From Allacma fusca (lineage: Eukaryota > Arthropoda > Collembola > Symphypleona > Sminthuridae), in NCBI GenBank assembly GCA_947179485.1, contig OX359248.1, positions 50,974,386-51,038,385 on the forward strand: 64,000 bases of DNA. Reading direction: 5' to 3'. The position numbers and the translations under genes are program-made. The number at the start of each line of letters is the position of its first letter. The stretch's first letter is position 1. Under the pieces are notes generated by a model. The model did no database searches. It was given only the letters and a program-made list of their open reading frames with translations, and was not told the DNA's origin. Positions 7,313 through 59,925 of this stretch are shown one piece after another.

Positions 7313-7397
7313 CCTATATACTGGTTGACAAGTTTATACATTGGTTGGCAAGCCTATATATTGGTTGGAAAGTTTATACGTTGGTTGGCAAGTCTTG
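7313..7397 (-). repeat. Inverted copies of the 20-bp minisatellite
   Basis: Just after the stop codon of the membrane-protein gene are about four copies of AAGTTTATACATTGGTTGGC-type units, the reverse complement of the intronic array. The exon at 7008-7312 is therefore bracketed by complementary arrays. Confidence 0.85.
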
Positions 7398-14034: not shown

Positions 14035-14970
14035 GTTCACATGACCTTACTGTGTCACGAATAGTCACATGACCTCAGATTGATCTTACTGTGTCACGAA
14101 TAGTCACATGACCTCAGATTGATCTTACTGTTTCACTAATAGTTGCATGACCTCAGATTGACCTTACTGTGTCACGAATAGTCACATGACCTCAGATTGA
14201 CCTTACTGTGTCACTAACAGTCACATGACCTCAGATTGTCCTTACTGTGTCACTAACAGTCACATGACCTCAGATTGTCCTTACTGTGCCACTAATAGTC
14301 GCATGACCTCAGATTGACCTTACTGTGTCACTAATAGTCGCATGACCTCAGATTGACCTTACTGTTTCACTAATAGTTGCATGACCTGAGATTGACCTTA
14401 CTGTGTCACGAATAGACACATGACCTCAGATTGACCTTACTGTGTCACGAATAGTCATATGACCTCAGATTGATCTTACTGTTTCACTAATAGTTGTATG
14501 ACCTCAGATTGACCTTACTGTTTCACTAATAGTTGCATGACCTCAGATTGACCTTACTGTGTCACGAATAGTCACATGACCTCAGATTGACCTTACTGTG
14601 TCACTAACAGTCACATGACCTCAGATTGTCCTTACTGTGCCACTAATAGTTGCATGACCTCAGATTGACCTTACTGTGTCACTAATAGTCGCATGACCTC
14701 AGATTGACCTTACTGTTTCACTAATAGTTGCATGACCTCAGATTGACCTTACTGTGTCACGAATAGTCACATGACCTCAGATTGACCTTACTGTGTCACT
14801 AACAGTCACATGACCTCAGATTGTCCTTACTGTGCCAATAATAGTTGCATGACCTCAGATTGACCTTACTGTGTTACTAATAGTCGCATGACCTCAGAAT
14901 GGCCTTACTGTGTCACTAATAGTTGCATGACCTCAGATTGACCTTACTGTGTTACTAATAGTCGCATGAC
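14035..14970 (+). repeat. 39-bp minisatellite, about 24 copies
   Basis: Head-to-tail copies of a unit that reads CACATGACCTCAGATTGACC then TTACTGTGTCACGAATAGT, period 39 bp. Units differ at a few positions (GTGTCAC/GTTTCAC/GTGCCAC; CGAATAG/CTAATAG/CTAACAG; ATTGACC/ATTGTCC/ATTGATC). The variants recur in blocks, suggesting amplification of multi-unit segments. The array has no coding frame. Confidence 0.95.
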
Positions 14971-22424: not shown

Positions 22425-24115
22425 ATGAGATGCTTACATTTTCTGTTGTTTCTTGTGACCCAACTCCATGGACAAGAGCTCTTTGTCAAGTCCACAGAAA
22501 ATACCACAACCACAAATACTACGGCGGTTCCAGAAGTTTTGCTCATTGAGATAAATACAACGGAGACGAATTCAGCACAGGGACCGTCTCCAACGCCGGA
22601 GATTATTCCTGTCACTCTGTCAGTCCGTGAAGTGACTGTCGAAAATGTCTCTGTCGTGGCTGGAAATGACACGACAACTATAGTGGTTCCCATTACGGTT
22701 GTAATTCCAGAAGTTGGGAACGTATCGTTTATCCAAGATCCAATTATTACAAACGAAACGGTCCCAGAACAGGTCAAAGCAGTAGGCAATGAAATTAGGA
22801 ATCAAACTAGCACTAAAAGTAATGAAATCCCAACGTTGATCGTTGTGGATATAATCCCTGACTTACAATTAGCAAAGAGCAATTTCACTGAGACAACAAC
22901 AACAACAACAACAACAACAACACCAACAACACCAACAACAACTTCAACTCCGGCTCCTTCTCTAACCTCTCAACCCACCCCATACTCGTTTGTAGAAGGA
23001 GACAAGCTAAATGAAGCAGCAATTAATTACATTTTGTCTCAAAATGTAAGGCCTACAGCAAAATTAAACAATTTATTTTAAATTTGTGGGCTTTAGAACA
23101 AGCGCTTGAGTTAATTGTGAGTTCAATTAGCCACACAAAGGTTGCTGAAAATTTTTACGCATATATTCAGGTCTCAGAAAATTTGGTGGAAGACTTGGAC
23201 GAGATTGATTCTTGGGAACCTCCACTGAATCTTCAGAGAGCCTATCCATATTATTTGACAGGATTTGATGAAGAGAACCGTCCCAGTAAGTTCATTATTA
23301 CGGTATTCATAATTATTGGAAGTTCCATGTAAGTTTAGATCTTATACTTAATGAGCCTCAATTTCTGATGTTTATTAAAGTCTGGGTATCTGAGTGGGGA
23401 AAGTTCGATTTAAGGAAAATCGTGGAAGGAGGAAATAAAAGTATGGAAGAATTTAACAAGTATGCCAGGAAAGCTGTTCGTATCATTACAAAGTCTCATG
23501 ACTTGAAGTCAACTCCGGAGAATCCAGTGACCCAAGCTGCTTTCATTGTAGACTTTGATGGGATGAAACTGGATCAATATGCTCATCTGCCAAGTAAGTT
23601 ACTTTATGTATCAGTCATTGGCACTTATTAGTTTATCGGAGCTGTTGTAATAAAATGTAGAAAATGTTGTCTCGGTAAATTTAATCTAGTAATGGTTAAT
23701 TTCTTACAGCCGTCATGTATGCCTTGGACCTTGCCAAGGAACATCGGGATATTATTCAAAAACATGCGTCCAGAATTGTCATTGTAAACAGTAAGTGACA
23801 GTAATTATCTGTACTTTTATATTATTACGGATGGATGGGTAGTTTCTGACATTTAATAATTAATTTAATACTGATCAAATTTAATAGTAACATACTAAGC
23901 CATCCCTTTAAATTACAGCTAACTTCATTGCTGAAGCAGCCATTAATCTTGGACGGAACGTTTTTGGACGTCTCTTTGAGCGTGTGGAAGTTTTCGGAGC
24001 CAATAAATCAAGATGGGTTCATCACCTACGCCGAATCTTCCCTGCAGACCAGATCCCAGAGTGGTACGGAGGAACTAAGAAGAGTCACAAGCCACTTTTT
24101 ATCTACGGGAAATAA
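22425..24115 (+). CDS. Secreted CRAL-TRIO (Sec14-like) protein 1 with mucin-like N-terminus, 408 aa
   Basis: Five exons: 22425-23045, 23171-23285, 23381-23593, 23710-23790, 23919-24115; all GT-AG with matching phases (0,1,1,1). Residues 1-16 are a signal peptide. About 20-200 are rich in Thr, Val and Pro with many N-x-T/S sites and a poly-Thr run coded by an (ACA)n tract. About 210-408 form a CRAL-TRIO lipid-binding domain: YYLTGFDEENRP, WGKFDLR, VDFDGM, then I-V-N-T-N-F-I-A-E, LFERVEVFGANKSRW and the closing IPEWYGG. CRAL-TRIO proteins carry small hydrophobic ligands (retinoids, tocopherol, phosphoinositides) and are usually cytosolic; a signal peptide makes this an extracellular form. The paralogue at 26098 is downstream on the same strand. 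The ligand is unknown. Confidence 0.85.
22890..22944 (+). repeat. Coding (ACA)n microsatellite
   Basis: A run of ACA/ACC triplets in frame encodes the poly-Thr stretch of the first CRAL-TRIO protein. Its length probably varies between alleles. Confidence 0.8.
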
Positions 24116-26097: not shown

Positions 26098-27237
26098 ATG
26101 TTAAATAAATTGGAATTATCCGAAATGTTACCATTATTTGTGTTAGTATTTACATTAACATTTCAAATTTGTGCAGCGGAAGGTAATGATTTAAATGCTA
26201 CCCTCGCTAGGATATTTTCGGCAACAAATTTTACCTACCCTTATCCCGAACTTGAACATTGGCAACCCCCCTACGAACTCCTCAAGAATTATCCATTTTA
26301 CTTATCCGGATTTGATGACGAAAATCGGCCAAGTAATAAATTATATTTTACACTCATATTTATTTATATAAATACACATACATTGGAAACTATAAAATAA
26401 TAATTCAAGCAGTCACATGTACTTGTACTTGAGTAGTAATTATATTTAAGAATAAATATTTAGCAATTCACAAATGTCTAAAATACTTTAATATTTTTCA
26501 GTTTGGGTTGCCGAGTGGGGAAAATTTGACCTGAGAAGAATTGTGAAAGGCGGACAACCCACTATGGACTTATTTGACAAATATTGTCAAAAAACTGTTC
26601 GAGTGATTTCTAAATCTCATGATCTGAAATCTACAAAGGAAAATCCAGTGACACATGCAAATTTTTTAATTGACTTCGACGACCTCAAATTCGATCAAAT
26701 CACCGACCCACAAAGTGAGTTATTTATTTGCACAAATTCTATATTCTGGGCACACAGATTTAGTTACGTACGATTCTTGTCCTATTGTGCAAGTAAACTT
26801 TTTAAAGGCAGAAACGCTCTACATTAACTACAGTATTTGGTCACATCTAATTTTTTTTCAGCGCTTGCGTATGTCTTGCATTTGGCTGTGGAACACAGAG
26901 ATATCATTACTCTGCATGCTCACAAAGTCATTGTTATAAACAGTAAGGAATTTTTCAAGCTTTACTAATGACAAAATATGAGATGGGTCAAGTAGGAAAA
27001 CACTGTGTTTAGAAATCTGATTTAATGCATACATTATTTTTTACAGGCAACTTCATTGCTGAAACAGTCATCAGATTTGCTAGATCAATTTTTGGTGGGT
27101 TATTTGAGCGTGTGGACATTTATGGATCAAATAAAGCCAAATGGATTCCTCATTTATTACGGATTTTCCCGGAAGAAGCTCTTCCTGAATGGTACGGGGG
27201 TCGGAAAGGACACAAGCCCGTGATAATTTACGGATGA
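26098..27237 (+). CDS. Secreted CRAL-TRIO (Sec14-like) protein 2, 239 aa
   Basis: Four exons: 26098-26332, 26502-26714, 26862-26942, 27047-27237, all joined in phase 1. The last three have the same boundaries and lengths (213, 81, about 194) as exons 3-5 of the gene at 22425, so the two are tandem duplicates. The N-terminus is a signal peptide (LPLFVLVFTLTFQICAAEG). It lacks the Thr-rich region of copy 1 and goes almost directly into the CRAL-TRIO domain (FYLSGFDDENRP, WGKFDLRR, IDFDDL, SNFIAE, LFERVDIYGSNKAKW, LPEWYGG). Likely a secreted lipid carrier. AATAAA lies about 50 bases after the stop. Confidence 0.87.
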
Positions 27238-39670: not shown

Positions 39671-41058
39671 ATGGCAACCCTTTTTCAAGGAAAGGATCAT
39701 GCTCAAGTTTATGCTCAAAGTCGTCCATCAACTCCTCCAGAGCTTATAAGCAGGGTGCTGAATTTTCTAAGAGAGCAGGTATAAGTATTTCTTTCTGCAT
39801 AATTACCTATGTATGTATATAAATTATTGTTTCTTGCTTAATACAGTATTCGTATTTAACTTTAACCGAATTTCATAAGGTACAAAAATATATTATCAAA
39901 ATTATTTTCATTGGGTTCCTGTACATAATTTAGTACACTGGAGACTTACACCTTGCTGTGGATGTTGGCTGTGGTTCGGGTCAGAACACGTTTTTGTTCA
40001 GTGAACATTTTGAGAATGTCATTGGAACGGACGTGAGTGGTGCGCAGATTGAAGTTGCGACAACATCTCGGAATGACAAACCGAACGTGACATTTGCGTT
40101 AGTATTTATACGTTAAGTACATTCTGTATCATTTCTTCTGTAATTTTATTGTGGTCAACAAGAATTATTACTCCCTCATCATCTAGAATATATTGAGTAA
40201 GAAATAATTACTTGAAGGAAAATTGCTTCAGGGTGCATCCTTCTCATGAAATCCCTGCAATGGATGGATCTGTGGAACTAATAACTGCAGCAACGGCTGC
40301 ACATTGGTTTGACCTCCCTAAATTTTTTGCTGAAGGTGACAGAGTTCTACGTCAAAATGGGGTCATGGCTTTATATTCCTACAATATGTTCCCTCGACTT
40401 AATTTCGTAGATGAGAATGGCATTGACAAATCGGATCAATTGAACGGAATTGTACAACAGGTATTTTTTTATTTACTCAGTTCAGCATTGTTATAACCTT
40501 TCCTTAATTTTCAAGAATGTTTGACTAATGATCTAGATACAAACAGAAAATCTTGCAGGGTGTTTTGATACAGAGAGGAGACAAATTGCGCGGGATGAAT
40601 ATAGAAGCATTGTCCTACCGATGAGAGACTTAACCAGGTTTGAATGCTCGCCTCAACTTGTAAATTTATGAAAATATTTTGTAGGATTGTATTCGTAGCA
40701 CCATTTGTCATTTACAGAGAATTCGGATTCATCAATCACTATAGAACTTCCCTACAAAATCTGGCAGCAAGACTTAAAAGCTCATCGGGATTTCAAACTT
40801 ACTGTAGACTCAACGGAGAGGAAAGCGGAGAAAACATTGTCCAAGATTATCTGACGGAGTCAGTATTTGTATTTGTAATCCTATTTGAGACGCTGGAACT
40901 TAATTATGTTCCTTACTACCTTAAAATGTAAATGTTATCTATGCATATTTTTTGGCAGTGTCTATCTACTACTGGGGGAAAACTTTGAGGAAATGTCACC
41001 AGAAACCATTGTGTTTGACGCTAAGGAGACATGGTTTGTGGTAATGGCTAGGAAGTAA
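39671..41058 (+). CDS. Class I SAM-dependent methyltransferase 5, 280 aa
   Basis: Six exons: 39671-39778, 39934-40097, 40232-40460, 40537-40637, 40718-40858, 40959-41058; phases 0,2,0,2,2. Motif I is VDVGCGSGQNT, the acidic residue is in GTDVS, and the block reads AAHWFDLPKFFAEGDRVL. The N-terminus (MATLFQGKDHA) and the stretch MALYSYNMFPRL match copy 1, so copies 1 and 5 flank the MANRYFE trio. Intron 2 uses a GC|gttagt donor position in phase 2, like its relatives. It is convergent with the GMC-mucin gene. Confidence 0.87.
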
Positions 41059-43433: not shown

Positions 43434-45696
43434 TCATGTACCTTGAGCATGGTAAGCTCCAGCAGTTACTGGCCTTTTCTTCTCCATTTTCTTGTGTAAA
43501 GTTTCATCTGTATTTGATTTAGAGCCGAACCCCAAATTTTCCTCAAAATGAACTTCTACATTCGTTTCATCGACTCCCAATAAACCCTCCATTTCCAATA
43601 ATTCGACTGAAGAAGTACTGCCATCAACAAACAGTGCTTCTTCTGAACTTTCTGTGGACTGTAATTCAACCTTCACAGTGTTGGCGTGAGTTGTGGATTC
43701 GTTTTCTTGATTTTTTAATAGCATTGGAATGAAACGTGGAGCAGGTTTTGTAGAAGCTATAGTTTTCGTTTTAACTTCTGTTACGTCCGACTTCAAATTT
43801 GTGACACCTTGGTGACGAACTCTGCCTCCTAAATAAATTACGGACGATTTTGGTGTGGAAATTTGGTAGGGAAGGAATACCTGCACAGAATATTTGCGAA
43901 AGATTGATCAATCTTAGTAACATGTGTAAACTTATATGACATGGAATGATCTGCATGGACTATAGAGAAATGGTGGCTGAAATTTACCTCCGATTGGATG
44001 TTTGGACCAGTCTCCGATTTAATTGGATCTGTTGATTTGTACGAACTTTTGGCATCAGTAGTTGTTTCATAAAAAGCACTAGATGTTTCCAAAACTTTAG
44101 CCCTTGCGGAATTTTCTGCAACCCCAATTTCATCTTCTGAATTTGCATCAAATTTTTCTTCTACTGATGTTTCTTCAGTTGTTTCATCTGAACCGGCATT
44201 TTGGATTTCAGTAATATTCAAAATAGAGAGCTTACGGGGAAACCTTGTTTCTGTAGTAACATCCTGCAAGGATAAGTTTGTGAAAGATTCATAACTCTTA
44301 GTAAAACGTGTACTCTTGTATGACATTGAATGATCTGCATTCACTATAGAGAAGTGGTTGCTAAAATTTACCTCCGATTGGATGTTTGGATCAGTCTCCG
44401 GTTTAATTGGATCTGTTAATTTGTACGAGCTTTTGGCATCAGTCGTTGTTTCATAAAAAGCACTAGATGTTTCCAAAACGTTTGTCATTACGGAAGTTTT
44501 TGCAAACCCAATTTCTGCTTCTGAAGCTGCATCGAATTTTTCTTCTACTGATGTTTCTTCAGTTGTTGTCCCATCCGAACTGGCATTTTGGATTTCAGTC
44601 ATGTTCAAAATAGAGAGCTTGTGCGGAACCTTTGTTTCTGTAGTATCTTCCTGCAGTGATACGTTTGTGAAAGATTCATAAGAGTTAGTAAAATGTGTAC
44701 CCTTCTATGTCATGGAATGATCTGCATTGACCTTAGAGAAGTGGTTACTAAAATTTACCTCCGATTGGATGTTTGGATCAGTCTCCGATTTAATTGGATC
44801 TGTTGATTTGTACGAGCTTTTGGCATCAGTAGTTGTTTCATAGAAAACACTAGATGTTTCCAAAACGTCTGTCCTTGCGGAAGTTTTTTCAAACCCAATT
44901 TCTGCTTCTGAAGCTGCATCGAATTTTTCTTCTACTGATGTTTCTTCAGTTGTTGTCCCATCCGAACCGGCATTTTGGATTTCAGTCATGTTCAAAATAG
45001 AGAGCTTGTGCGGAAACTTCGTTTCTGTGGTATCTTTCTGGAAGGATAAGTTTGGTGATATTGTTAGTGAATTTTTCGGAGATCGGGCAGAAGTTTCTTC
45101 AGTTGAATTATGTACATCTTCATATGGCTGCAGTGTACTTGTATCAGTTGGCTGCTTCGAGTGAGCTTCAAAAGGCTTTTCCATACTGTGTTCCAAAAAG
45201 TAACCTTTAGGGTGCTTCACTAAACGTTTCTTATACTAAATTTTAGCTTTATGACATGTCAATTTCACCAAATATTTTTAAAAAATAAGCCGCCTGGTGA
45301 GCAGTCAATTTAAAGTTTACCTGCATCATTCCTGACGTGGATTCCCAATTAATAAACTATTACCATTTATCTGGTTAAGATAAAGGAGAAATAAATAGGT
45401 CCCGTGTTTGCTTTTAAATAATTATATACGTGCTTTAATCTTGGTCCCAGGAAAGAAAGAGAATAATTTTATTACAAAGAACACTTAGATTCTTAAGTAA
45501 TCAATGGCCTTCATGCTCGCCAATCCTTTGATCCTATCTCAACTCTCCTGCTCCTTAAGTGGTTTATTCTATTATTCACCCTTTTACTCTCTTCCCTTTG
45601 TTCTTTTCACTCTCTTTTTCCTTCTCTACCACTTTCTCTTACTTCCCTCTGACTTTCTCTCCCCCTTTAATTTTTCCTTTACTCTGATTCTCTCTC

Positions 45697-45733
<37 letters not shown>

Positions 45734-48700
45734 TTCATTCTTAGTCTTTCTTTTTCTCCCCCTTTCTCTCGGTCTCCTTTCATTCCGTAACACATAGACT
45801 CAAAGAGGAATCTTCAGAATTTAAAGTAGATACTTTACCCAGTAATAGGAGCTTCGGTTTGCTCCCTAACAATATTTCTCATAGAGGAAGCTGGAGTGTC
45901 TCTGTTCAAATTCAAAACTCGGATCTGCTTTGTCCTGCCTGCGTCGGAAATCTCGCCGGAGTAGTCCATAAAATCAGGGTGTTTAATATCGGCTTCAACA
46001 TCATAAAAGACAGTATCGGGTTTATCAGAAGGATGCTCAGATTTAGACGTAATAACTTTTGCCACGGAAATTGTTTTCTCCATCCTAGTTCGTGCCATAG
46101 AAATTGTATGGGATTCCTTTTCTATCAAATCTGCTGATTCGGCAGGTCGTGGAATAGTCACTTCTACATCATATGCAGGAAAATCATCTGAAACATGTTC
46201 ATTCTTATTGACAATTGTTTTTGTTTTAGAAACTGTCTTTTCGGTTCTGGATTGCTCCCTTGAAATTGAATGGACTTCTTTTTCAATTATATCTGCTTCT
46301 GCCGCTGGGAAGTCTGGTTGAGATAAGGTTATATCCACATCATATACATGATGTGGATCTGATATCGGGGAGTCTTCGGAATGAGAATCTGGCAAAATAC
46401 CAAGTTCACTCATAATTGCTTTATGGAGTTGGAACTTTGTTTTTGAAGTAGTTTGGGCCTCGCTGGGATTTGTAGTTGCGGAAATAGTATGACTAGTAGA
46501 CTGGGATGCGTTTTTCATATCTTCGAAGATTTTGTCGATTGATACAACCATCGATTCTGCATCGGGCGACTTCTCTGCCACTGTGTCCGGTTTACCTGTA
46601 TTTAGATTCACTGCAACACTACTTGGAGAAACGGTGGTGGTATCTGGTTCATCATCCAAAATTAATGGATCAGTTGTGAGAACTATATCAGTTACATGTC
46701 CTCCGGCGGTAACATGTTCAATTATTGTAGCGTCAGTTGATGCTAAAGGTCTATCCTGTTGTATCAATTCAGTCCCAGGCGATTGTGTTGTAATGTCGTT
46801 TAAGGCTTTGGATAGCCGCGTTGAAGTTTCTTCCGGCATTAGCGTAGTTGGTTGGGGTTTTGTGGGATCTGTTGTATCTTCATCATCTGAAGAAATCTCG
46901 TTTTTGGTTTTGGATGGGCTGGACTCAGGGCGTTTTACAGTTGTAGATTCCGTTGTCTCAGTGAGATGTTCTGTTGTTTGCCCATTTTCGAGGTTGTGTT
47001 GTGGCTGAGAGTTCAAATTTGTTTTTATTGAATCTCTAGGGGCTTGAGATACTTGAGCAGCTTCTAATGCAACTTGGGTAGATGTGATAGGGATTTCAGT
47101 CGTGATATCTTGAGACCCGTCCGAATTTTCAAAATTAATGACATTTCCCATAATTGTTGTTGAGGCTTCAATTCCCAATTTGGTATCTTTTCCGAGTACA
47201 GTGTTGTCATCGTCAGAAATATTTTCAGAACTTGGAGTAAAGCTTATACTAGTGTCTGATTCTGGTAGAGCTGTTGACGAATTTACTGATGTAGTTACTG
47301 CTTTAGAAACTATCGGGTTTCCCAATAAATCATTGTTGTAGCGATCGGACTCTTCGGTAGCAAAAGAATCTTCCGAATTCGGTGAGTTGGTAAATTCTGT
47401 ATTTTCACTTGGTACATCAGAGGTCACCGCCTCCTTATTATTATCCACCCTTGCTCCTTTGTTTCTAACAGTAGAACTTGCAAGAACACGGACCATCGTT
47501 TTGGACCTCGAACTTGTTTCTATTATAGTAGATTTAGTTGTGACACTCGTTGGGCTATTACTTACAGCAAATTCTGCGGTAGTAGTTGCTTCAGTGGACA
47601 CATCAGAATATTTTGTCATTTCCTCAGTGCTAGATCTGGAAGAAGTAGTAAGCTGTTCAGTGGTGTCGTCAACATCAAAACCATTTCCGTCCGTGACACC
47701 ATCCGCTTCAGCCGAAGTGGTTTTCGAGGTTGAAACAGGCAGATTATTATCTGTTCCTCCTGAACGTTCCGAGTCGGAAAATTTATCTTGATCAGTTACA
47801 TGTGAAAAACTGTTATTTTTACTATTGTCAGCATAAGTGATGATTGGTTTTTCTATCGCATTTGACAAATCTTCAGCCAAATTTTGATCCGTCGTAGTTT
47901 CGAATTGTAAATCCGTACTTATAAGATTGGACAACGTTACTGCAGCGCCGTCTGCGGTTACAGCACTAGAACTTGTTTCTATTAAAGTAGGTTTACTTGG
48001 GAAACTCTTTGGACTTCGGCTGTTATTTATAACGAATTCTGCCGTTGTAGTTCCTTCTGTTGGCACATCCGGATATTCTGTCATATCCGCTGTACTAGAT
48101 CTTGAAGAAGTAGCGAGCTGAAGTTCCGAAATCGGTGAGTTGGTAAATTCTGTATTTGCACTTGGTACATCAGAGGTCACTACCCCCTTAGTATTGTCTG
48201 CCCTCGCTCCTTTGTTTCTAATAGTAGAACTTGCAAGCACACGGACCATCGATTTGGACCTAGAACTTGTTTCTATTATAGTCGATTTACTTGTGACACT
48301 CGTTGGACTATCACTTACAGCAAATTCTGCGGTAGTAGTTGTTTCGGTGGGCACATCCGGATATTCTGTGTTATCCTCAGTACCAGAGGAAGAAGTAGCG
48401 AACTGAAGTTCTGAAATCGGTGAGTTGGTAAATTCTGTATTTGCACTTGGTACATCAGAGGTCACTACCTCCGTAGTATTGTCTGCCCTCTCTCCTTTGT
48501 TTCTAATAGTAGAACTTGCAAAAACACGGACCATCGATTTGGACCTCGAACTTGTTTGTATTATAGTAGATGTACTTGTGACACTTGTTGGACTATTATT
48601 TAAAACAAATTCTGCCACAGTAGTTGCTTCGGTGGGCACGTCTGCATATTTTGTCATATCCCCAGTGCCAGATCTTGAGGAAGTAGCGAGATGTTCGGTG

Positions 48701-51700
48701 GTGTCATCTACATCAAATATATTTCCGTCCGCTTCAGCCGGAATGGTTTTCGAGGTTGAAACGGGGAAACTTTCATCTGTCCCTTCTAGACGTGTTGACT
48801 TGAAAAGTTTAGCTTGATTGAGTTCATGTGAAAAATTACTATTGTTATTGCTGTCATTAAAAATGGATGGTTTTTCTATCACATTTGTTACACCTTCTGT
48901 CAAATTCGGAGCCGTTGTAGTTTCGAACGATAGATCACCGCTCATGAGATTTCCTGATAGCGTTACTAATGCGCCATCTGTTGTTTCCAAAGGTAGTTCC
49001 TGGATTTCGGTAGTTGTTTTGGGAAAGTCAGATTTTGTGACCTGTGAGTCACCTAAATTAAGGGTTCTTTTAGTAGTCCCAAAGGGATCAACGGGCTCCT
49101 TTTTCCGTTCCTGTTCCGATGTCCATTTACTTAAAGCTGAAATTACAGGATCTTCTGTATTTTGCAAAATATTTGCCGGAATTTTGGTGGTCATCTGTGT
49201 TACACTATAGTTCTCTGTTGAAAAATTTGTGCCATCGGCGTTTTCTGATAATCTTTGACTCCCTTTTTCTGAACCAGACGTTTTATCTTTACCAAAATCT
49301 ATTTCGAACGCTGAATTGGTAGTAACGTCTGGGTCGCCATTTTGTAAATTAGCTGTCATAATGGAGGGTTTTACTGCTAATAGCTCGATTAGAATTTCCT
49401 TTGGCTGAATTGTTGTTTCACCATCTTGCCTTTGCGGACCATTGTCAGGTGTCTCGGGTAAGTCTTCCTCGACAATATTTTCAGATTTTATTGACGGCGT
49501 TTGGGTTTCCATTTCAAGAGTAGTAGTATTAGTTTCATTTGGATGAGTCTTCATTGACAAGGGTTGTACTGTAAGGAATGAAAATGTATCTGTTGTTGTA
49601 GTTGTTTCAATGTTAGATTGTTCGCTTGGGCTTGTCAATGTTGTGCCCATTTTGTTAACTTCTGAATCATCTAAAGCTCTGGTGCTACTGCTTGTAGTTT
49701 CCCCCTTAGTGAGTGGCTTAGATTCTGTTATTGATTTTAAAGTGGACACTTCACTATCGTTTGAATCGGTAGTTAATTTAAGAGAATCATCAGATTTTGC
49801 ATTAATTTTATCTTTTGTATTAACTAAATTCTGATTAGTATTAAAAGTTTTTGGGGCGTCCGTAAAAAAGTCATTTCCGCTTGAATCGGCTTCAGTTGTC
49901 AAGGATGATTTAGAAATCCAGTCTTTTGTTTCTTCAATTACGCGACCATCAGTAACAAATTCTCTATCTGTGGTTTTGGAAGCAACTGTAGACGCACCTG
50001 TGTATTCTGGCTGCATCTGTGTGAATGATAGTTCAGTAGTTAGATCTGAAATTTTCTTGCTACCAGATTCTGTTGTTTCCATTTTGGAATTCAATATTTT
50101 CGAATATTTTGATGATGGTTTAGCATTCGAGTCATTTAAAGCTTTAGCGTCACCAGATGGTTTCATTTCAATTGTGGAATTTTCGATTTGACTAAATGTA
50201 CTCGTCCAGTCAAGATTTGACGCTGTTGTGGATATAGATTCCTCAGGAATAGAGGTTGCCTCAGTTGATTGATGCAGATGAGCATTGCCTTTATTTTCTT
50301 GTACTTTTACGAGAAATCCCTGATTCTGTGCAACTTCTTTTCCAATTATTGAAGTATCAGTTGTATTGGATATTTCTGTTTCTTCGACTGGAGATTCTGT
50401 TGGGACGTAAGCTGTGACACCGCTTTCTGTCATGGAATCTTTGCTTCTGGAAGAATTAAAATTACGACTGATTGTTGTGTCTACCCGATGATCTAATTCA
50501 CTTCCTGAAATCCTGTTGCTTTCTGGGATTTCGGTTGTGTTTTCTTGTGTTTCCAAATCCGGAGTGGTTGATTCGAGATCCGAACCATTTTTCAAAGGTT
50601 TTCGCGGATTTGTAATTCCGAAACTTTTACCTTCTCTATTATCTGGACATGTGGGCGTTATTTCGACCTTTTCTGTTTGGAGTATTTCCAGTGGTGTATT
50701 TTCTTGCGGTTTCAGTTTAGACTCCGACATTTCTGTTGTTTCCCGTACGTCTTTACTTGACCGGCTTGCAGATTCGTCATCTCCAGAAAGTATTGACATG
50801 GGACTAGTCATGGGAATACTCATTTGAGCAGTATCGTGCTCGTCAATATTTAAAGTTGAAACTGTAGTGTCCTCTTCTGGAGATTTAGTTTCAGAATACG
50901 TTAGGTGTTTCAGTTCCGTCGAGATTTTTGATTCGTTCCATTTTTCAGAAGAAGATGGTAATAATGTAGGAATTTCTGCACCGGATTTCTGACTTGCAGA
51001 TTCAGATGCTGTTGCTCCTTCTGTGGTTGAGGAAACGTCGAATAAAATGGATGGCGTTGACCCAGTTTTGGGACTCTTGGTACCTTCTGATGTAACGGCA
51101 TTTCCATTCAAGGGTTGAACTTTGTTGGCATCATCTGTTGAACCTTGATCTAAACTACCTTTCGTAGTTTTAGTACCAGAACTAATCCTTGTATCTTCCT
51201 GAGTTGATTTATCTAAATTTAAAACCAATATGCGCTGTCTGTTCTGAGAATCTTGTCCAAAAAGAATGTCTTCAGGAAGTACAGTTGTATACTCTTTTCC
51301 AGCTACAGTTTCTGTGGTGCCCTCCGGCAACTCTGATTTTATATGAATACCTTCAGTATCTAAAATTGTTGAGTTTTCATCGTCTGGTTTAGTTTTGGAG
51401 ACTAACCCGGCGCCATTCTCCAAAACAGATTTTGAATTACTGCTACCTTCTGTACGACTTGATGTCTCAGGTCTAATCAATGTAGATTCCAGTTTTTGCT
51501 CGGATTCAAGTGATAGATCCGTAGCGTTAGTTGTGCTATCTTCTGATGAGATCGTAGTTTCCTGATCTTTTTCAGACGAAACTATTGAAACCAATGTAGT
51601 TCCAGTAATGTTTTCAAGTTCATTATTTATTAGGGTTTTCCAGTCGGAGGTGCTGTTTGTTGGATCAACTGAAGTAGTTTCCATGGATGTTGGAGATTCC

Positions 51701-54700
51701 TCTGATGATGCTTTTGTAGTGTTCCAGTTTAGGTTAATGGCATTTGTTTTTTCGGTTCTGTTCTTGTTTTCTTTACCGTTGGTAAGGAAATCTGGTGGAA
51801 ATACATATGATCGGATATTCTCTGTTTTTAAATTTTGACATGCGTTTTTAAATCAGAAATTGCTAGTATATACATATCTATAAAATTGAATCAGCCAAAA
51901 TTTTACTGTCCAGGGCGATTATTTTTTGAAAATTGTGATCAACATCAGCAGGACTACAAAGCAAGAATCAAATATTAGACTTACGCAAGTTAGTAGTACG
52001 TATGTACATACATGCATACGCATCCGCTGGTCCAAACATATGCGCTTTAAAGGACATTGTTAAACATGCTTCGTGCCTATGTTAGTTGCTGGTTATTTGA
52101 TCAAATTGCTGTTTGGCAATGAGTACATGCACGTAGTGGGAAGAATTAGTCATTATTATTATTATTACGGTACTGGCTTCCAAAGGAAAACACATGTTTT
52201 TTAATAAATCATTCATTCAGTTAATCGGTTACATTTATCTAATACACCCACACGTTAGCTCAGGTCAAATAATATTTACAAGGTAACTTCTAAACACCTA
52301 CACAAATGTAGATACAGACAATCATCCTCAAGTAATAACATTTCATTTCCGCTGCCAAGATAAAAAGAAGTATATGTAATTACGTACATGCCATTATTGG
52401 TGGTTAGTTGTAAAATTATGACTACTCACACTCCCTCTGAACTGGACTAGTGAAGCATAAGTCAAATTAAGAAATTAAAGCGTTGTCGTGTTAATTTTTG
52501 TAAATTCAGAGTATTGAGCTTTGAAAGGTATCTTCGTCAAACGTTTAACTCAATAAAATTGAAAAATGACATTACCAGGAAGACTTGGCACCGTAGCATC
52601 TTCCATTGAATTCTCCACTAACTTCTCGGAGCTCAAGTCAGACCGTAGGGACTGTTCAATACCTGCAGTAATGTCACCGTAATCAGCAATTTCTTCAGCT
52701 GTTGTAGTAGCTACAATGTTATATGAATCTATACTTGATTTTCTTAAAGAATTTCTTTCCGTTGGGAGTCCTGTAGGAGCAGCACTTGCTAGTACTTCAT
52801 CAATTGCAGCTGCATCAATTCCAGTTGAAGAATCTGCCTCATCATAGTAGTCCACAGATTTTTCCGTATTAGAAGGAATGGGGGTCCCTATTTTGTCATC
52901 CTGGGAAGTACTTTGAGTGAACATTGATTGCGTAGATGTTGAGAAGCCTTCGATACTTGAGTCCATGGTTGTGTTGAACAATTTGCTTGCATTTCTGTCT
53001 TGATTGTTTTTATTTACCAAGGTGACCATCCTATTTAAATTCTTCGTAGTTTCAGAAACTTGCTCATTTGCAGTCATTGATTCAATGGCCTTTCTATCTT
53101 TGTCCGTACCCGTCCAATCAATTTCCATCGCATCAATTCGGTTTGTGGTGGAAACAACAGCATTGTCTTTACTGGATTCAGTGAGTCCATGCAATGTTGC
53201 TTCTACATTGCCGGTCCCCATCTTTTCAACGAGCGTTTTGATATTTAGCAAACTTTCCAAACCATCCTGGGAGGCGGGGACCGGACTTGGTGCTGAGGTT
53301 ATAGAGGATATTTTAGGTCTTCCATTAAAAATTCCTTGTGGAGAAGTAATATCGTCTCGACTCTTTTTGTTTACGGTGGAAGACCTTCTAGTTGTGGACG
53401 AACTAGTGAAAGTAAAGGGTCGATAACGATGGAACACTGGTTGCGACGGGGAGGGCGGGACTTTTGACCAGTGCTTTAATATGAGGTCCGCACCTTTCTC
53501 ACCGATCATCACAGTCGGGGAATTGGTATTTCCAATGGGAACGGTTGGCATTATGGAAGCATCTATGACTCGGAGGTTTGTCACACCACGAACTTTTAGA
53601 TGTGAGTCAACAACTGAGCTGGAATTGACTGGCCCCATGGCACAAGAGCCCACTATGTGATGAAGGGTTATTGACAATTGTCGAATGAAACACTCCCAGT
53701 AAGCATCACTTCGAAATTGTATTTTTTCGCAGCCAGGGAAGGGTTGAGAAGTGAATTTTGCTCGAATCTCTCGAAAACTCTTGGTGTTTTCTGCGAGGTC
53801 CACTGCTTTTTTGACACCTGGGTTTTCAAAAATTATTACGCATCATTACATACTCATGTCATTCTCTCTCACAAGAAAACCTGTCGGGTTGAAACTTTAT
53901 GTGAACATTGGACCTTGGCTAATACAATGCCCAAACTTCGTGCTAGTTCTTCTGCCAGGGGGCAAAAGTTGAAATTCAAATTTTTTGGACGGGTCTCGTC
54001 TACATTTAATTACGCGGGGGTGGGGGATTGTACCTCTAAATGCATTAAATCTAAATACAATAATGGCAAACGGTACAAGAGTCAAAGGTATAATAGCCAC
54101 AGTCAAAGGCATGAGGTAGCAGACGCCATAAGTAATGAATGGTATAAGATAGCAGAAGATATAAGTAATCATAAGCATAAAGTAGAAGCAGGTATCAGTA
54201 ATCAAATACATCTGAACGTTTACTGAAGTTTCAAAATATCTACCGACGTTTATTTCTAGGAAATTTAATGGCTTATAAACGAGCTATTAAACATGTACCT
54301 ACGTTAAAAATTGTCGATATGACCAGTAAAACAGCAAAATTAGAGAAATTAACGGTCAGGATCAATGATATGAAAGAAGAGTTTCGGATCTAGCATTTTT
54401 TCATGATCAGTCTGGTGTTCACAAAAATAATTCGGCAAGCTGATTGTAGCAACATGGGGATTCAAAATTTGAGTATAATATATAATAACTCATATTGACC
54501 AGGAACATACGAACAGCTTGTTTCCTTTACTGACCAAAAACAGGTCACAAAGCCATTATTGTCAATCAATATATGCTCACATGACCACTATTGACCGCCC
54601 ATTGCACCACATGTGGCCTTTTTTGACCAATCGCAGGTCACTGAAGTCTTTCTGATACATTTGATCAAATCAAATCTTAAAATTCAAAAATTGAGTAAAT

Positions 54701-57700
54701 TTTAATGTGCAAATTTTAAACTGAGTCGGGCCTCCTCGATCGAGCAACTGGGTCTAAGTTTTGTAGAGGTTTGGGCATTGGGCCAAGGTCATATACTCAT
54801 CCTTTACCAGGGGTGGATTAACAAAAACAATTTTGGCCCTAAGCTTCAAAATAGATTTGTGGATCTTTGCAAGTACACTTGTATACATTCTGAGGGCCTC
54901 TGTTATTTTTTTTACCATACCCCTAAATGATTTACTCTGTCCACCCCTTAAATCTACCCCTGCCCTCAACTATGTAATTGTAAGTTTCATTCCACGCTAT
55001 CCATCCCGAGAGGTTTCTTGTCAACTGTTAATGTTGACCTGTACCAATTTGTTTATAAAGCGAAATAACAAATAAATTTCATGGTTCCACAATTAAATTC
55101 GACAAAGTTAAATATTTTTTAAAGCACTGCACATTGTAATCAAATCAAAAATAATAAAAACAATACTAATCATCCGGTAAATGCTGACTCAATTTTAAAA
55201 TTACCTTCTATCATGACCCTAATATCCTTTTCATTTTGGAGGTACTTTGGATCGATATGCAGTTTCTCATCGGGGTCTTTGCTGTTCAGAAGTATCTCCC
55301 CTCTTTGGATAGGCCTTGCCAAAGAAGTGATAATAACGAACGAATCTCTCCCCAGGTCGTTTCGATGATACTCATTTAATATGTCCTCCCTCACATGAAA
55401 TCCATGTGCAAAATGTTTAGGATATTCGTTGTAGGTTCCGTATCCGCCGTACATTAGTTGGATGTCCGGCCAATCTTCCTCACCTTCAGCCTTGGCTATT
55501 GGGGTAGAGAAAAAACCCATGGCTTGAATACCAGATGAAGTGAGGGCTCCGGTACCTCTGGAGAAGTACTGTATGAACTGGTTCACTTTGATATCCCTGT
55601 CTGGTATCAGGCTATGGCCCTGATCAACAAAAAATGGACCGAGGTACAAAGAGATGTGATCCTGAACGTTTTTACCTACCTCGGGAGAGTCAGCTTTTAC
55701 TTCCACCTGTGGGTTTCAAAGGCATCAGTAATTAATTTAAATTTTTGTCGTATCTGATGAAATAAAATAAATGTGCAAATCCAAATTGCTGATTAATTTG
55801 AATAACGTGGAATTTACATTATGAGATTCCAAATGCTTCCTTGGACCAATTCCAGACAACATTAAGATTTTTGGTGATTGTATGGCTCCAGCAGATATTA
55901 TCACTTCTTTTGTAGCACGAGCTTCTCTTAAATGTCCATGCCGTACATACTCCACTCCACAAGCTACATTTTTTTCGTCTATGATGATCTGTAAAATGTT
56001 GTCGGGAGTTTAATATTAAATTGGTAAAGTTATAAATGAAGAATTTAATAAACATATAACACTACATATGATACTGGAGTTACTATCTGAAAATAATAAT
56101 TGAATGAAAACAATAATGTTAAGAAAGTACTAGATACTTATTTTTCAAACTAGATATTCTCACTACATTATAATTTAAACTCTTTTCATTTTTCTAGCCT
56201 CAGAAGTAATCATTTATGTACATTCTTGAAAGAGCCTTTTATTTACATGGGCAAATATATTTACCGTAAATTGTGCTTAATTTACCACAATGTAATTTTT
56301 TCTTCTTATGCAAATCCACACATTTAATTTCCCAGTGATCATGCAATAAAAGGGATGCTCTCTTTAGGGAAAGTTAAGTATATCAAGCATGCATTTCCTG
56401 TTGCATACATCATCATGTTGTCTATAAAGTAGTTACTTACATAAATAAGATATGTAGATATTTAGTACCTTGTTAACCTGCGCGAATTTTTCTATAGTCA
56501 AAGTCCGTTTCTGTCGAATGGGTTTGATGTAAGCAGCGTACGCTCCGTGTCGCCGGCCATTTTTAATGAAGTTATAAATGCTATCAAATCCTGTAAATTA
56601 AAACCGCATTAAATTTTTGTTTAAATCAAATCCCATCGTCTTCATATGGTAACTAAATTTTCTAGGAAATGGCCTCAGTCAGGTATGTAATTCACACTTG
56701 CATAAATATCAGGGAAAATCTGGTCAAGATTTTTTTATAGTTAGATTTTGGACTTTATCATTCTAAAAGCGTTTAGATCTATCGATAGTTAAACTTTAAA
56801 TTTTGTTTGGAAATTAGAAGGATCATAGTATGGATTAATTATAAATGGACTTCTTTTCATGGTTTACGTTACGTGGTTTTCTACTTTACGGACTTTATCT
56901 TTATGTGGAAGAGAAACTAAGACGAAACAGTGATACGTGCAGCAAACAAGGGGTCTGGTAAGTAGCAGTACCCCTGTTTGGGATAAACAGATTTCAATCT
57001 CAATTGAGGTCCAATTGGAAAGAGCTTGCCTGTTATTTTCACACTTAACCAATTAAGTTTTATTTGTTAATTATCTTCCATCATAGAAATAATTCCCAAT
57101 ACAATAGAAAGCGAAAATTGCTACCTAAAGTTTCTCAAACTCACCAGAAAGCAAAATGGTTATTGGGACAAAACAGTTAGTGGACTCAGGACTGTGCACA
57201 TGTTAGATACTATTTTTATACCTTAAATGTTACATAATCACTTTGACAAGTTGTGGCTCAGGATGAGCATAAATTATCAGAGAAGTCATTGAGGCAACTT
57301 GCGCTAAATATTTTGCAGAAATCATCCAAGTTTAGTAAGAACCTGTTTTTACGATTTTTGCCCTTGCTGCTTCCCTTTCTTACATAAAAGTAAAATAAAT
57401 TTTATTAACTTGTGTAATTTGTACATTTCTGCAGCATACCTTGAGTGAATCTTCCATTCAAGTCAACTTTCTCATAGCCGAGGTCCTGTCCGGCTCTAAC
57501 AAACATATCAGCATTACCACGCTCAGGAGGGAGCTCAATCCGCATCTTGCCGTCTTTTCCATGCAGACCTATAAATATAATGAATAATGAATAGATACTT
57601 CTGTGTCCAAATGTCCTTATTAGGTTAGAATTTTACTGGGAAATACGACATAACAGTTGCTTCACTGAAAGACTATAAAAGTTGGTATTTATTATAACGG

Positions 57701-59925
57701 ACCAGAATATTATTACTTGTTACTAGGAAAAGACCTCTCAAGTTGTACACAAGCAAAGCGTTAATACGTTAATAAAAAAAATTGCACAGGAGGCCAAGAA
57801 TACTTAACCCCTCACCCATATATGGAGGAATTGTAAATAATATTCGATTCCCCCACATTTTAACAAATAATTTTCTGATCTTTCAAATATTGGATTCAAA
57901 TTATTCGGCACAAGGTTTTGGAAAGATTTCATTTTTATGTATCTCAGCTCGAAACAATTCACAGACGTCTCACATTTTTTTAGTTCCTGATACCACAATT
58001 TTTGGCTTCGGAATATGATATTAGACTCAAATGAATCCTCATGAAATTCAAAAATTCCTTTTTCCGCATCCTTTTCACTTTTGCGCTGAATTTTGTAGTT
58101 GAATTTTCTGCAACCTTCAAATAAACGTTGTCTCTCTATATTTCCGGTCATCCCCTCGATTCTCAACAAGGGACTTGTCTAGTAGCTCCCTGGAAAGCCC
58201 ATATTTGCTATTACCAACTAAACTTCAAATATATTTTGAAAAACATTTTGGACTGGAGTAAACAATTTTAAACTGAAAATTTCTGATTTCCCAATGAAAT
58301 CCTGACTTTGCGTCACTCTTTTTGATCAAACCCCATAACGTCAGAACTGCTAACGCAGAATTCGGATTCAATTTTTTTTAAATCAAAAAAATTATTTGCT
58401 AAAATTAAGGAGAATTGTATATTGTTTATCATTCCTTCTTATATTATGCCAGGGATGAGGTATTTATTCTTTGGCACCATGTGTGCTTAATTTTACCTGA
58501 ATGGCTATAGTCCCCATGATAATCTTCCATCTTCCTGAAATAAGGAAGAACCCCGTCGTAGCTCCAGCTTGAGTCACCCGTGATTCTTGCCCAGTTGTCG
58601 TAGTCTTTAGGGTGACCTCGGGAGTGTATCATAAAATTTATATTTGAAGTGCCCCCCAAACCTTTCCCTTGGGACCAGCCAGATTCCTTCAAAAATGTTT
58701 AAAATTTCATGTGTTGCATAGACAAACAATTATCCATTATCTAAGCAATTTGTTGTACACTATAAGAACAAACATCTTAGCATCATAAGTTTTGTAATGG
58801 AATTTTGTCTCTACCTGATTTACTAGGGCTAGGCAAGCATTCCTCTGAGGGACCGTCCTGTGCATCCAATCTATTTGAGGGTAATTGAGCAAATAAAATG
58901 AGAATCCCGGGATATGACTGAAGACATAGGGTTCTCCTCCAGCCTCCAGCAAAAGCACGTTGTAGCTTTGTGCTAACCTGTGAGCCACAACTGAGCCAGC
59001 AGTGCCTGCTCCAACTGTTTTTCATTCCGGATAATGATAATACATTAGTATTTTTGTGTACGATCAATTTAATTTAAAAATTATAAATAATTAATATGTT
59101 ACAAAGAATGCTTAGATTATCTACCCAAGTGTAGAGTACATATCAACAATATTCAGTTTCATGCTGCTGTCTGTAAAGGCGACAATTTACACACCTTGGA
59201 GAGACTGCCTACAGTAAAAATGTAAACAGATCCTTGACTGAATTACAAAATTATTAAACAACAAAATTCAAAGTAATGTAAAGAAGTTAAATTGAACAGC
59301 TACAGTAATTAGTATCAAAGACGGTTATCTTTATTGTGTCAACGTAGATATTCCTTTGCTTCCAGAAAACCTCTTTGCTCCTTGCCCTCCTTTGCTATCT
59401 TCTTGTTTACTTTTTACCCAATGCTATTAAAAACTCATTGTTGACTAATTGTATGTACGGAGCAAAGCAAAACTAGATATATTGCTAACAACTTTGCTGC
59501 TAAAGAGTTTCAAAGTTATCTCTTGGCTGACAGTAGTATCCATATGTACATGCAATGACTGACACTCCCAATACATTATTTGTACAGGCATACTACCGCT
59601 AATGGGTGAAATATAATATCTCTGACATTAACATACATACTTATGTACATTTGATGACAATACTATTAACGACAATGCACATAGTTTAAGCACAATAGTA
59701 ATTAATTGCAACAGGATTAAATCCTGTCACGAGCAATAAAGTCCAGGAGGAAAGAAATAGTTTCTCACCAACAATAAAATCATAACTACTTCTTCCCGGC
59801 CTAAAGCCTGAGGACAGTTTATCCTTTAGAACGTCCGCACCATGCCACAGTGAGATATAAACAGCCATAGAAGCTATCAAAGAATAGAGGAACCGGACCA
59901 ACGAAATTCTCAGAATTTGCCCCAT
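43434..59925 (-). CDS. GMC oxidoreductase with giant Ser/Thr-rich mucin-like tail, about 3,374 aa
   Basis: Thirteen exons on the minus strand: 59925-59769, 59014-58815, 58686-58497, 57568-57440, 56590-56469, 55988-55818, 55706-55205, 53817-52576, 51821-45839, 45185-44759, 44650-44372, 44263-43988, 43880-43434. All phases agree and the sum is 10,125 bases. Signal peptide about 1-25; FAD motif VVGAGTAGS (G54, G56, G59); GMC signature 1 GKGLGGTS at 126-133; signature 2 GAIQSPKILMLSGIG in exon 6; C-terminal HHIVGSCAMG with catalytic His544, and GNTNSPT giving Asn587/589. This is a glucose-dehydrogenase-type enzyme, complete at about 610 aa and normally ending there. Here exon 8 continues for about 290 Ser/Thr-rich residues and splices in phase 1 to a 6-kb mucin-like exon. 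There is no C-terminal membrane segment. The exon 8-9 join is the step most in need of proof. Confidence 0.75.
43881..45060 (-). repeat. Tandem exon-intron units at the 3' end of the GMC gene
   Basis: Three copies of a unit of about 385 bp, each an exon stretch (LSILNMTEIQNAGSDGTTTE ... SYKSTDPIKSETDPNIQSE) followed by a homologous 107-108-base intron that starts gtaaattt and shares AATGCAGATCATTC. The units occupy the end of exon 10, exons 11 and 12 and introns 10-12. Intron 10 contains an in-frame TAG and intron 12 is 107 bases, so both must be removed; intron 11 is 108 bases with no stop and could be retained in frame. Confidence 0.8.
45689..45735. repeat. (CT)n microsatellite in intron 9 of the GMC gene
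   Basis: A nearly pure CT run on the plus strand within a longer pyrimidine-rich stretch (45560-45785). On the transcribed strand it is a purine (GA) tract. Confidence 0.9.
45839..51821 (-). other. 6-kb mucin-like exon (exon 9) of the GMC gene
   Basis: A single exon of 5,983 bases, open throughout: about 1,994 residues dominated by Thr, Ser, Glu, Asp and Pro, with many N-x-S/T sites, no Cys-rich domain and no hydrophobic span. It contains a run of about 95-residue repeats (47.4-48.7 kb). Near its C-end are three related blocks (YDVDITL, YDVEVTI, YDVEADI, each followed at intervals by KTVSKTK-like stretches). The acceptor is AAAACAG|AG and the donor GG|gtaaag in phase 2. Such regions are usually heavily O-glycosylated and extended. 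A standalone gene would need its own start; no ATG with a signal peptide was seen at its 5' edge. Confidence 0.75.
47380..48705 (-). repeat. About 285-bp coding repeats inside exon 9
   Basis: Three well-kept copies and one diverged copy of a 95-codon unit. Each starts near FTNSPISELQ, then has TSSRS, YPDVPTE-TTT, AEF, ETSSRSKSMVRV and SSTIRNKGARADN, then VTSDVPSANTE. On the plus strand, GGTGAGTTGGTAAATTCTGT marks the unit boundaries at about 47381, 48134 and 48419. The last two are 285 bp apart. Confidence 0.85.

Follow-up and report, generated by a model that had tools for sequence, protein, structure and literature searches.

A GMC oxidoreductase gene of the springtail Allacma fusca with a predicted Ser/Thr-rich tail of 2,762 residues

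The usual GMC enzyme is compact, with about 600 residues. A complete GMC oxidoreductase is encoded on the minus strand of the window analysed here (64,000 nucleotides of Allacma fusca contig OX359248.1, assembly GCA_947179485.1, positions 50,974,386 to 51,038,385), and its frame leaves the enzyme domain inside exon 8, runs on through a Ser/Thr-rich stretch and is predicted to be joined by an in-frame splice to five further exons; because of this read-through and splice the product is likely to comprise 3,374 residues. On balance, we favour a secreted or membrane-anchored GMC flavoenzyme, made as one product of that length, in which the tail of 2,762 residues would serve as a tether to the extracellular matrix.

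Gene model

The model was rebuilt from the DNA, as the earlier note contained no exon list and stated only where the gene begins and ends, how many exons it has and the junction 52576/51821. Between 59925 (start) and 43434 (terminal TGA) on the minus strand, 13 exons are joined in phase to 10,125 nt, that is 3,374 codons and a stop. The bare chain would have a mass of 370 kDa. All 12 introns are GT-AG and phase-matched, in agreement with the 13 exons, the length divisible by three and the matching phases that had been described before. The features are as follows.

Exon 1: 59769 to 59925, minus strand; ATG, hydrophobic N-terminal segment, beginning of the FAD-binding motif; donor ttgttg/gtgaga
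Exon 2: 58815 to 59014, minus strand; VGAGTAGS dinucleotide-binding motif
Exon 3: 58497 to 58686, minus strand; GKGLGGTSNINFM GMC signature region
Exon 4: 57440 to 57568, minus strand; GMC_oxred_N
Exon 5: 56469 to 56590, minus strand; GMC_oxred_N
Exon 6: 55818 to 55988, minus strand; GMC_oxred_N, GAIQSPKILMLSGIG
Exon 7: 55205 to 55706, minus strand; GMC middle part and start of GMC_oxred_C
Exon 8: 52576 to 53817, minus strand; end of GMC_oxred_C with His544 and Asn589, followed by about 292 Ser/Thr-rich residues
Predicted intron 8: 51822 to 52575, minus strand; 754 nt, the critical junction
Exon 9: 45839 to 51821, minus strand; 5,983 nt, Ser/Thr-rich, in-frame internal repeats of about 95 residues
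Exon 10: 44759 to 45185, minus strand; repeat unit 1 at its end
Exon 11: 44372 to 44650, minus strand; repeat unit 2
Exon 12: 43988 to 44263, minus strand; repeat unit 3
Exon 13: 43434 to 43880, minus strand; terminal exon with TGA stop; next AATAAA at 42877
387-bp tandem repeat: 43893 to 45054, minus strand; three copies, each of about 279 nt exon and about 108 nt intron
Candidate separate first exon in intron 8: 52299 to 52346, minus strand; hydrophobic start, 16 residues, could join the 51821 acceptor

Enzyme domain

The enzyme part is a complete GMC oxidoreductase, in line with the hallmarks claimed for it earlier. Both Pfam domains are found in order and above cut-off (GMC_oxred_N at residues 48–341, 3e-44; GMC_oxred_C at residues 455–596, 4.7e-40), and the FAD-binding GxGxxG motif, VVGAGTAGS, lies near the N-terminus at the join of exons 1 and 2. 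The best match among solved structures is 8b7s (2.6e-89, residues 44–611), opposite whose His and Asn the residues His544 and Asn589 are aligned; by analogy with choline oxidase, these two would be the catalytic pair. The enzyme would oxidise an alcohol or a sugar and may pass the electrons to oxygen or to a quinone. A hydrophobic segment at approximately residues 4–27 is predicted to direct the protein to the secretory route; no Lys or Arg was counted before this segment and two after it, and the orientation is not settled by these charges. Drosophila GLD is described as essential for exoskeleton metabolism in a passage of PMC1891103, and by kinship with it an outer location of the enzyme would be expected.

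Composition and openness of the tail

Beyond the enzyme, the predicted model continues for 2,762 residues, acidic overall, with 783 Ser/Thr (28%), Pro 5%, Asp+Glu 16%, Lys+Arg 9% and one Cys. Approximately 292 of them, in open frame, sit in exon 8 together with the end of the enzyme domain, matching the stretch of about 290 residues past the usual C-terminus that had been noticed in this exon; the remainder of the tail, put earlier at about 2,760 residues, hangs on the predicted splice. In nine of the 12 introns (those of the repeat were left out) stops occur once per 14 codons, and at this rate the exon-8 tail would be open by chance with a probability of about 4e-10 and exon 9 with one of about 1e-64. 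The openness of the 5,983 nt of exon 9 cannot be a matter of chance.

Exons 9, 10 and 11 gave no Pfam match at E≤1, and the hits of exon 12 to Treacle (0.0036) and of exon 13 to Nuc_deoxyri_tr2 (0.073), both below the Pfam cut-off, were taken as low-complexity noise. No VWD, cystine-knot or chitin-binding modules, such as those of gel-forming or peritrophin mucins, were detected by Pfam in exons 9–13. The term mucin, which had been applied to the tail, suits its Ser/Thr-rich and partly repetitive character but is otherwise only loose, because of the Pro content of 5%, the single Cys and the lack of any above-cut-off Pfam domain in exons 9–13. Sites for N-glycosylation in the tail are not enriched (38, against a shuffle mean of 44.5). 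A search of 5.8 billion proteins with exon 9 returned no homologs at E≤1e-3 (7,977 candidates scored, lengths approximately 1,096–3,488 aa).

Related proteins

The springtail-type set consisted of 36 single-GMC proteins among the best 120 of 4,462 matches; P0001 and P0017 (two GMC units each), the partial P0070 and P0099, which lacks an end motif, were not included, and it was their place on the tree that led to P0006, P0020 and P0031 being counted as springtail. The enzyme of the window falls in a springtail group apart from seven outgroup rows, whose selection did not aim at representing GLD and GOX. Five of the 36, among the matches listed, carry one GMC unit with a long tail of 496–596 residues: P0014 and P0015 (Allacma fusca), P0024 and P0035 (Orchesella cincta) and P0032 (O. 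dallaii). The earlier statement that no GMC enzyme has such a tail is therefore unsupported as worded; it holds for size, since none of these tails reaches a quarter of 2,762 residues, but not for kind. All five tails are Ser/Thr-rich and Cys-free, some also Pro-rich, and on the tree their proteins fall within the springtail group that also contains this enzyme, to which other proteins are closer. With such tailed enzymes defined by one GMC unit and at least 400 low-complexity residues after it, the predicted model would belong to them by way of the exon 8/9 splice. They are at least 4.6-fold shorter than the tail in the window and have no alignable similarity to it; the whole tail, compared with springtail tails of more than 50 residues by local BLASTP, gave only E≥0.99. 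Over 500 aligned residues the tails of P0032 and P0035, which come from two Orchesella species, show 76.4% identity; the cores of the two proteins are 92.8% identical. In the AlphaFold model of P0014, a relative and not the protein of the window, 582 of 1,117 residues have a pLDDT of 90 or more, and residues 622–1020 and 1044–1117 fall below 50.

Among the 128 matches listed, nine proteins, all springtail-named, have a single GMC unit followed by at least 100 residues and no other domain; a tenth with at least 100 residues after the enzyme, P0128, continues into an ABC transporter. None of eight GMC matches of 1,856–5,904 aa combines a single GMC unit with a low-complexity tail: five are multi-GMC, and three contain further long segments, which in two cases precede the enzyme. 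GMC protein lengths of approximately 1,583–1,855 aa lay outside both searches. No paper on tailed or springtail GMC enzymes was found in the literature searched, among the matches listed.

Nearest on the tree, with an SH-aLRT of 99 in a quick tree, are P0005 (Allacma fusca, 684 aa) and P0006 (674 aa), with 55% and 53% identity. Their tails are Ser/Thr-rich but short (69 and 56 residues) and share the end RPPLQCKYGxC; P0006 resembles a transcript, because its contig of 2,201 nt is too short for introns. This end, sought as a possible missed last exon, was not found within the window. The best match to the last 25 residues of the sister end (E=0.18 at 20539–20471, gapped) was taken as chance, as were two short pattern matches near 13.3 and 13.9 kb, on other sequence.

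Predicted junction of exons 8 and 9

Splicing of exon 8 to exon 9 is a prediction, which was scored with a matrix built from the remaining 11 introns of the model. Of the 38 AGs in 52500–51600, acceptor 51821 has the highest score, and its phase is right; donor 52576 is third of the 86 GTs in 53460–51822. Against the junction, the pair ranks sixth of 511 phase-compatible pairs. The gap of 754 nt is of ordinary size, as the other introns measure 107–1,387 nt. The in-phase splice proposed earlier, to a 6-kb exon followed by four others, stands as a phase-compatible join to a coding exon, which can be called mucin-like only in a loose sense. An in-frame stop begins 23 nt past the donor, so that the unspliced frame ends at 52550, and another lies 36 nt ahead of the first whole codon of exon 9; most other exons have such close flanking stops too, but exons 11 and 12, which belong to the repeat, do not. 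The first Met of exon 9 occurs 45 codons in, without a signal-like start. No AATAAA is present in 52550–51822 on the minus strand, and one ATTAAA lies at 52205, within intron 8.

The exon-8 tail has the codon preference of exons 9–13, and its composition distance from them is 0.055, compared with a median of 0.063 for their own 292-residue windows (n=109) and 0.155 for the single other Thr-rich ORF tried. Sequence similarity between the exon-8 tail and exons 9–13 was rejected as proof of one gene, 37 of 60 shuffles scoring as high.

It is possible, and we put it forward tentatively, that a short form stopping at 52550, with the exon-8 tail only, is made alongside the long one. The same geometry is found in honeybee GLXr-2, the C-terminus of which is altered by splicing out of its exon 8 according to cDNA evidence in a passage of PMC1891103. 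Reading through would add only 8–9 codons here, and the ATTAAA at 52205 is in keeping with such a transcript; the resulting end, NVIFQFY, is by eye unlike the ends of the relatives.

Less probably, the locus holds two genes. The GMC gene would then stop at 52550 after some 300 tail residues, and exons 9–13 would encode another secreted, Ser/Thr-rich protein that has a promoter of its own and a short first exon, either in the 0.7-kb gap or farther upstream. The ATTAAA could terminate the GMC transcript; the sisters P0005 and P0006 end after short tails, and springtail single-GMC proteins are no longer than 1,218 aa among the matches listed. One of eight candidate first exons in intron 8 (52346–52299) has a hydrophobic start and joins acceptor 51821 in phase; a looser scan gave 106 of 792 combinations with a hydrophobic start, and the first-exon scan, when applied to intron 7, yielded 12 candidates, every one of them hydrophobic. 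However, at least one such candidate arises in 14.5% of 200 shuffled introns, the one at 52346–52299 lacks good cleavage residues by eye, and a first exon in the gap would require a 3' end, a promoter, the exon and an intron to be squeezed into about 730 nt. Both ends of exon 9 resemble those of an internal exon, and the composition and codon preference shared across the junction likewise argue for one gene.

Repeats and growth of the tail

Nucleotide self-comparison revealed the internal repeats of exon 9 in frame at protein residues of approximately 1850–2390; a protein self-BLAST of the tail gave no rows. These repeats evolve like coding DNA, as shown by a dN/dS of 0.34–0.53 in four overlapping exon-9 repeat pairs; over all repeat comparisons, which are not independent, the ratio is below 1 in seven of seven (0.34–0.73). 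In the 387-bp repeat, exons and introns differ between copies by 14/279 versus 15/108 (p=0.005), 30/276 versus 22/107 (p=0.019) and 30/276 versus 16/106 (p=0.29), and one predicted intron of 108 nt contains an in-frame TAG (44707–44705). Growth of the tail is at least partly via duplication of units of about 92–96 residues, and because repeat units and introns can be read in place, the locus offers a clear example of the growth of a low-complexity tail to great length.

A tail that is real but has no specific function, being tolerated low-complexity sequence from slippage and segmental duplication, seems unlikely to us. It would fit the segmental repeats inside the tail, the failure of related enzymes' tails to align and the tree, on which long tails require at least four changes. 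Against it stand the dN/dS values below 1, the frame maintained across 2,762 codons and the identity of the two Orchesella tails, though the last is explicable by recent descent. An artefact of misjoined contigs or of false introns in the 387-bp repeat is highly improbable: three predicted introns are needed there, one of them removing the TAG, but the repeat introns diverge more than the exons at the p values given, and the window is free of any N.

Proposed tethering and role of the enzyme

In the favoured reading, that of a single tethered flavoenzyme, the tail is predicted to be disordered and is probably O-glycosylated, as its Ser/Thr residues and net negative charge suggest; it would then act as a stretched-out brush and retain the enzyme in the cuticle, in an epicuticular secretion or in the glycocalyx. 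The anchoring in mucus, cuticle or silk proposed in the earlier note is a reasonable guess, and the enzyme may, as also suggested there, generate H2O2. The springtail cuticle has been studied for its anti-fouling surface, as noted in a passage of PMC6083677, and an enzyme seated in its matrix would therefore offer a molecular handle for tests.

Provided that the long transcript exists, no other single-GMC enzyme among the proteins examined comes near this one in the size of its tail, and a wider springtail habit is indicated in which long disordered GMC tails arise or change repeatedly. A bolder extension, which we regard as doubtful, is that springtails have repeatedly made brush-tethered surface GMC flavoenzymes, in which a catalytic head anchored in the membrane and a disordered, glycosylated tail (about 2,760 residues in this case, on the order of a micrometre if extended) would carry redox chemistry through the outer cuticle matrix.

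Comparison with known systems

Like mucins, the predicted protein is Ser/Thr-rich, partly repetitive and likely extracellular; unlike them, it carries a flavoenzyme. Multi-GMC arthropod proteins, such as P0121 from Blattella (six units) and P0122 from Strigamia, are also very long, but by repeated enzyme units. Honeybee GLXr-2, of the insect GLD/GOX/GLXr group, belongs to the GMC family as well; its added exon measures 85 bp according to the passage of PMC1891103, in contrast to the 7.4 kb of exons here.

Gene model and enzyme core

The gene model was rebuilt from the DNA. On the minus strand, from 59925 to 43434, it comprises 13 exons with GT-AG borders and matching phases, which yield 3,374 codons plus a stop; its exon number, both of its ends and the junction between exons 8 and 9 (52576/51821) are those proposed in the earlier note. 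Two GMC domains were located by Pfam at residues 48-596, and the GMC domain end lies at about residue 612. The closest solved structures are GMC-type enzymes (8b7s at the top, 2.6e-89); in the alignment to 8b7s, His544 and Asn589 face His and Asn, and we take them to be the catalytic pair. Among the matches listed, springtail proteins are closest to the enzyme, with an Allacma fusca protein at 55% identity, and the enzyme was placed within a springtail group in a quick tree of 44 rows.

Coding status and composition of the tail

The frame of exon 8 (53817-52576) stays open for 292 residues beyond the GMC domain end and, together with five further predicted exons, gives a tail of 2,762 residues (Ser+Thr 28%, Pro 5%, Asp+Glu 16%, Lys+Arg 9%, one Cys). 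Nine introns of the GMC gene carry one stop per 14 codons, so the open frame of exon 9 (51821-45839; 5,983 nt) is not due to chance (probability ∼1e-64). Repeats of about 95 residues within exon 9 gave dN/dS values of 0.34-0.53 (four overlapping comparisons); among the three units repeated over exons 10-12, dN/dS is 0.52-0.73. In the 387-bp repeat, each of the three pairs is more divergent in its predicted introns than in its exons, a clear difference for two of them (p 0.005, 0.019 and 0.29), and an in-frame TAG at 44707-44705 falls within a predicted intron. The very large coding tail adjoining the GMC enzyme is real. The mucin label of the earlier note was not borne out by domain content, as exons 9-13 contain no Pfam domain above the cut-off. 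A unit of about 56 residues that opens with YDV(D/E) occurs three times, at residues 2731, 2788 and 2844 (window ∼46342-46003, minus strand); the units lie in a stretch with 19% Ser/Thr, less than in the rest of the tail, and are possibly a folded module.

Junction of exons 8 and 9

The coding tail is most likely part of the GMC enzyme gene. The gap of 754 nt between exons 8 and 9 is of ordinary intron size, as the gene's other introns measure 107-1,387 nt. By using a splice matrix built from the predicted model's own other 11 introns, acceptor 51821 was ranked first of 38 and donor 52576 third of 86. The chosen pair is sixth of 511 phase-compatible pairs, all of which keep the enzyme-tail frame by construction; the exact junction is therefore less certain than the join. 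One in-frame stop begins 23 nt past the donor and another 36 nt ahead of the first whole codon of exon 9; close flanking stops also occur at the other exons of the gene, except exons 11 and 12 in the repeat. The first 45 codons of exon 9 contain no Met, and AATAAA was absent between the enzyme part and exon 9. The exon-8 tail matches exons 9-13 in amino-acid composition: its distance from them is 0.055, a value equalled or exceeded by 71% of 109 windows of exons 9-13 when each is compared with the remainder. Both parts share their codon choice (GAA 0.79 and 0.81; enzyme core 0.53).

Alternatively, exons 9-13 could be a separate gene with a hydrophobic first exon at 52346-52299, the only hydrophobic start among eight candidates joining the 51821 acceptor. 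The nearest relatives, P0005 and P0006, end 56-69 residues past the enzyme, and the end motif common to both was searched for in the window and not found. At least one hydrophobic candidate was obtained in 14.5% of 200 shuffled introns; in intron 7, all 12 candidates from the same scan were hydrophobic, and when the exon 8-9 interval was scanned more loosely, 106 of 792 combinations had a hydrophobic start. Hydrophobic starts are thus cheap in this AT-rich DNA, and the first-exon scan is no arbiter between one gene and two. In our judgement, a single transcript probably joins the enzyme and exons 9-13.

N-terminus and proposed mechanism

The N-terminus carries a hydrophobic segment (highest 19-residue Kyte-Doolittle mean 1.72, from residue 4), as in 19 of the 20 relatives compared (mean at least 1.02); the exception, the GMC protein P0027 (0.26), has an apparently shortened N-terminus. 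By eye, a W...D...D pattern is kept after the hydrophobic segment, which would be more in keeping with a membrane anchor that stays uncleaved than with a signal peptide. The flanking charges favour neither orientation decisively. Enzyme and tail would lie outside the cell, where the tail, as a hydrated and likely glycosylated tether, might retain the enzyme within the outer matrix.

Other features in the window

6659-6969, 20-bp tandem repeat, 15.6 copies
7311-7393, 40-bp tandem repeat, 2 copies
14042-14970, 39-bp tandem repeat, 23.8 copies, 91% matches
22434-23078, plus strand, Thr-rich ORF with signal-peptide-like start, Thr runs and TTTPTTPTTT
23290-23631 and 26492-26827, plus strand, similar exon pair (VWVSEWGKFDLRKIVEGG... 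/ VWVAEWGKFDLRRIVKGG...) adjoining the Thr-rich ORF
39934-40496, plus strand, class I methyltransferase exons (Methyltransf_25, Methyltransf_11)

Close to the 20-bp and 40-bp repeats lies a short ORF whose start, at 6983, is hydrophobic. The Thr-rich ORF, which had no Pfam match at E≤0.01, would encode a second Thr-rich protein of the window, probably a secreted one. The similar exons are possibly duplicated genes; exon 26492-26827 on its own had no Pfam match. A stretch near 28840 resembles the methyltransferase exons, and the two are possible tandem duplicates.

Comparison with tailed relatives

Among the matches listed, five of 36 springtail-type single-GMC proteins carry tails of 496-596 residues and four more carry 122-219; none of these tails aligns to the present one. 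In a domain-search recount of the 128 matches listed, ten single-GMC proteins extend at least 100 residues beyond the enzyme, namely these nine and P0128, which continues into an ABC transporter; the remaining long proteins either contain multiple GMC units or have the enzyme preceded by long additional parts (P0126, P0127). Two of the five longest tails belong to an ortholog pair from Orchesella dallaii and O. cincta, whose cores are 92.8% and whose tails are 76.4% identical, so that tail has been kept by selection or recent descent. Tails of at least 400 residues occur in six tree rows, including the window, and need four changes, each of which is required by branches with good support; long-tailed rows cluster only modestly (in 13 of 500 shuffles the count was as low). 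The AlphaFold model of the tailed relative P0014 is confident for the enzyme (pLDDT of at least 90 for 582 of the 1,117 residues) and mainly below 50 for the tail, apart from a weak helix pair at ∼1012-1046; by likeness, the present tail is taken to be disordered. The Ser/Asn-rich end of P0090 (84 residues) suggests that short tails may occur beyond springtails. The C-termini of P0005 and P0006 share a conserved two-Cys peptide, NE(I/V)K-x-RPPLQCKYGxC.

No paper on tailed springtail GMC enzymes was found in the open-licence literature. A new kind of enzyme was rejected in favour of an extreme form of these tailed proteins: the predicted gene product is a new, extreme variant of the springtail tail habit.
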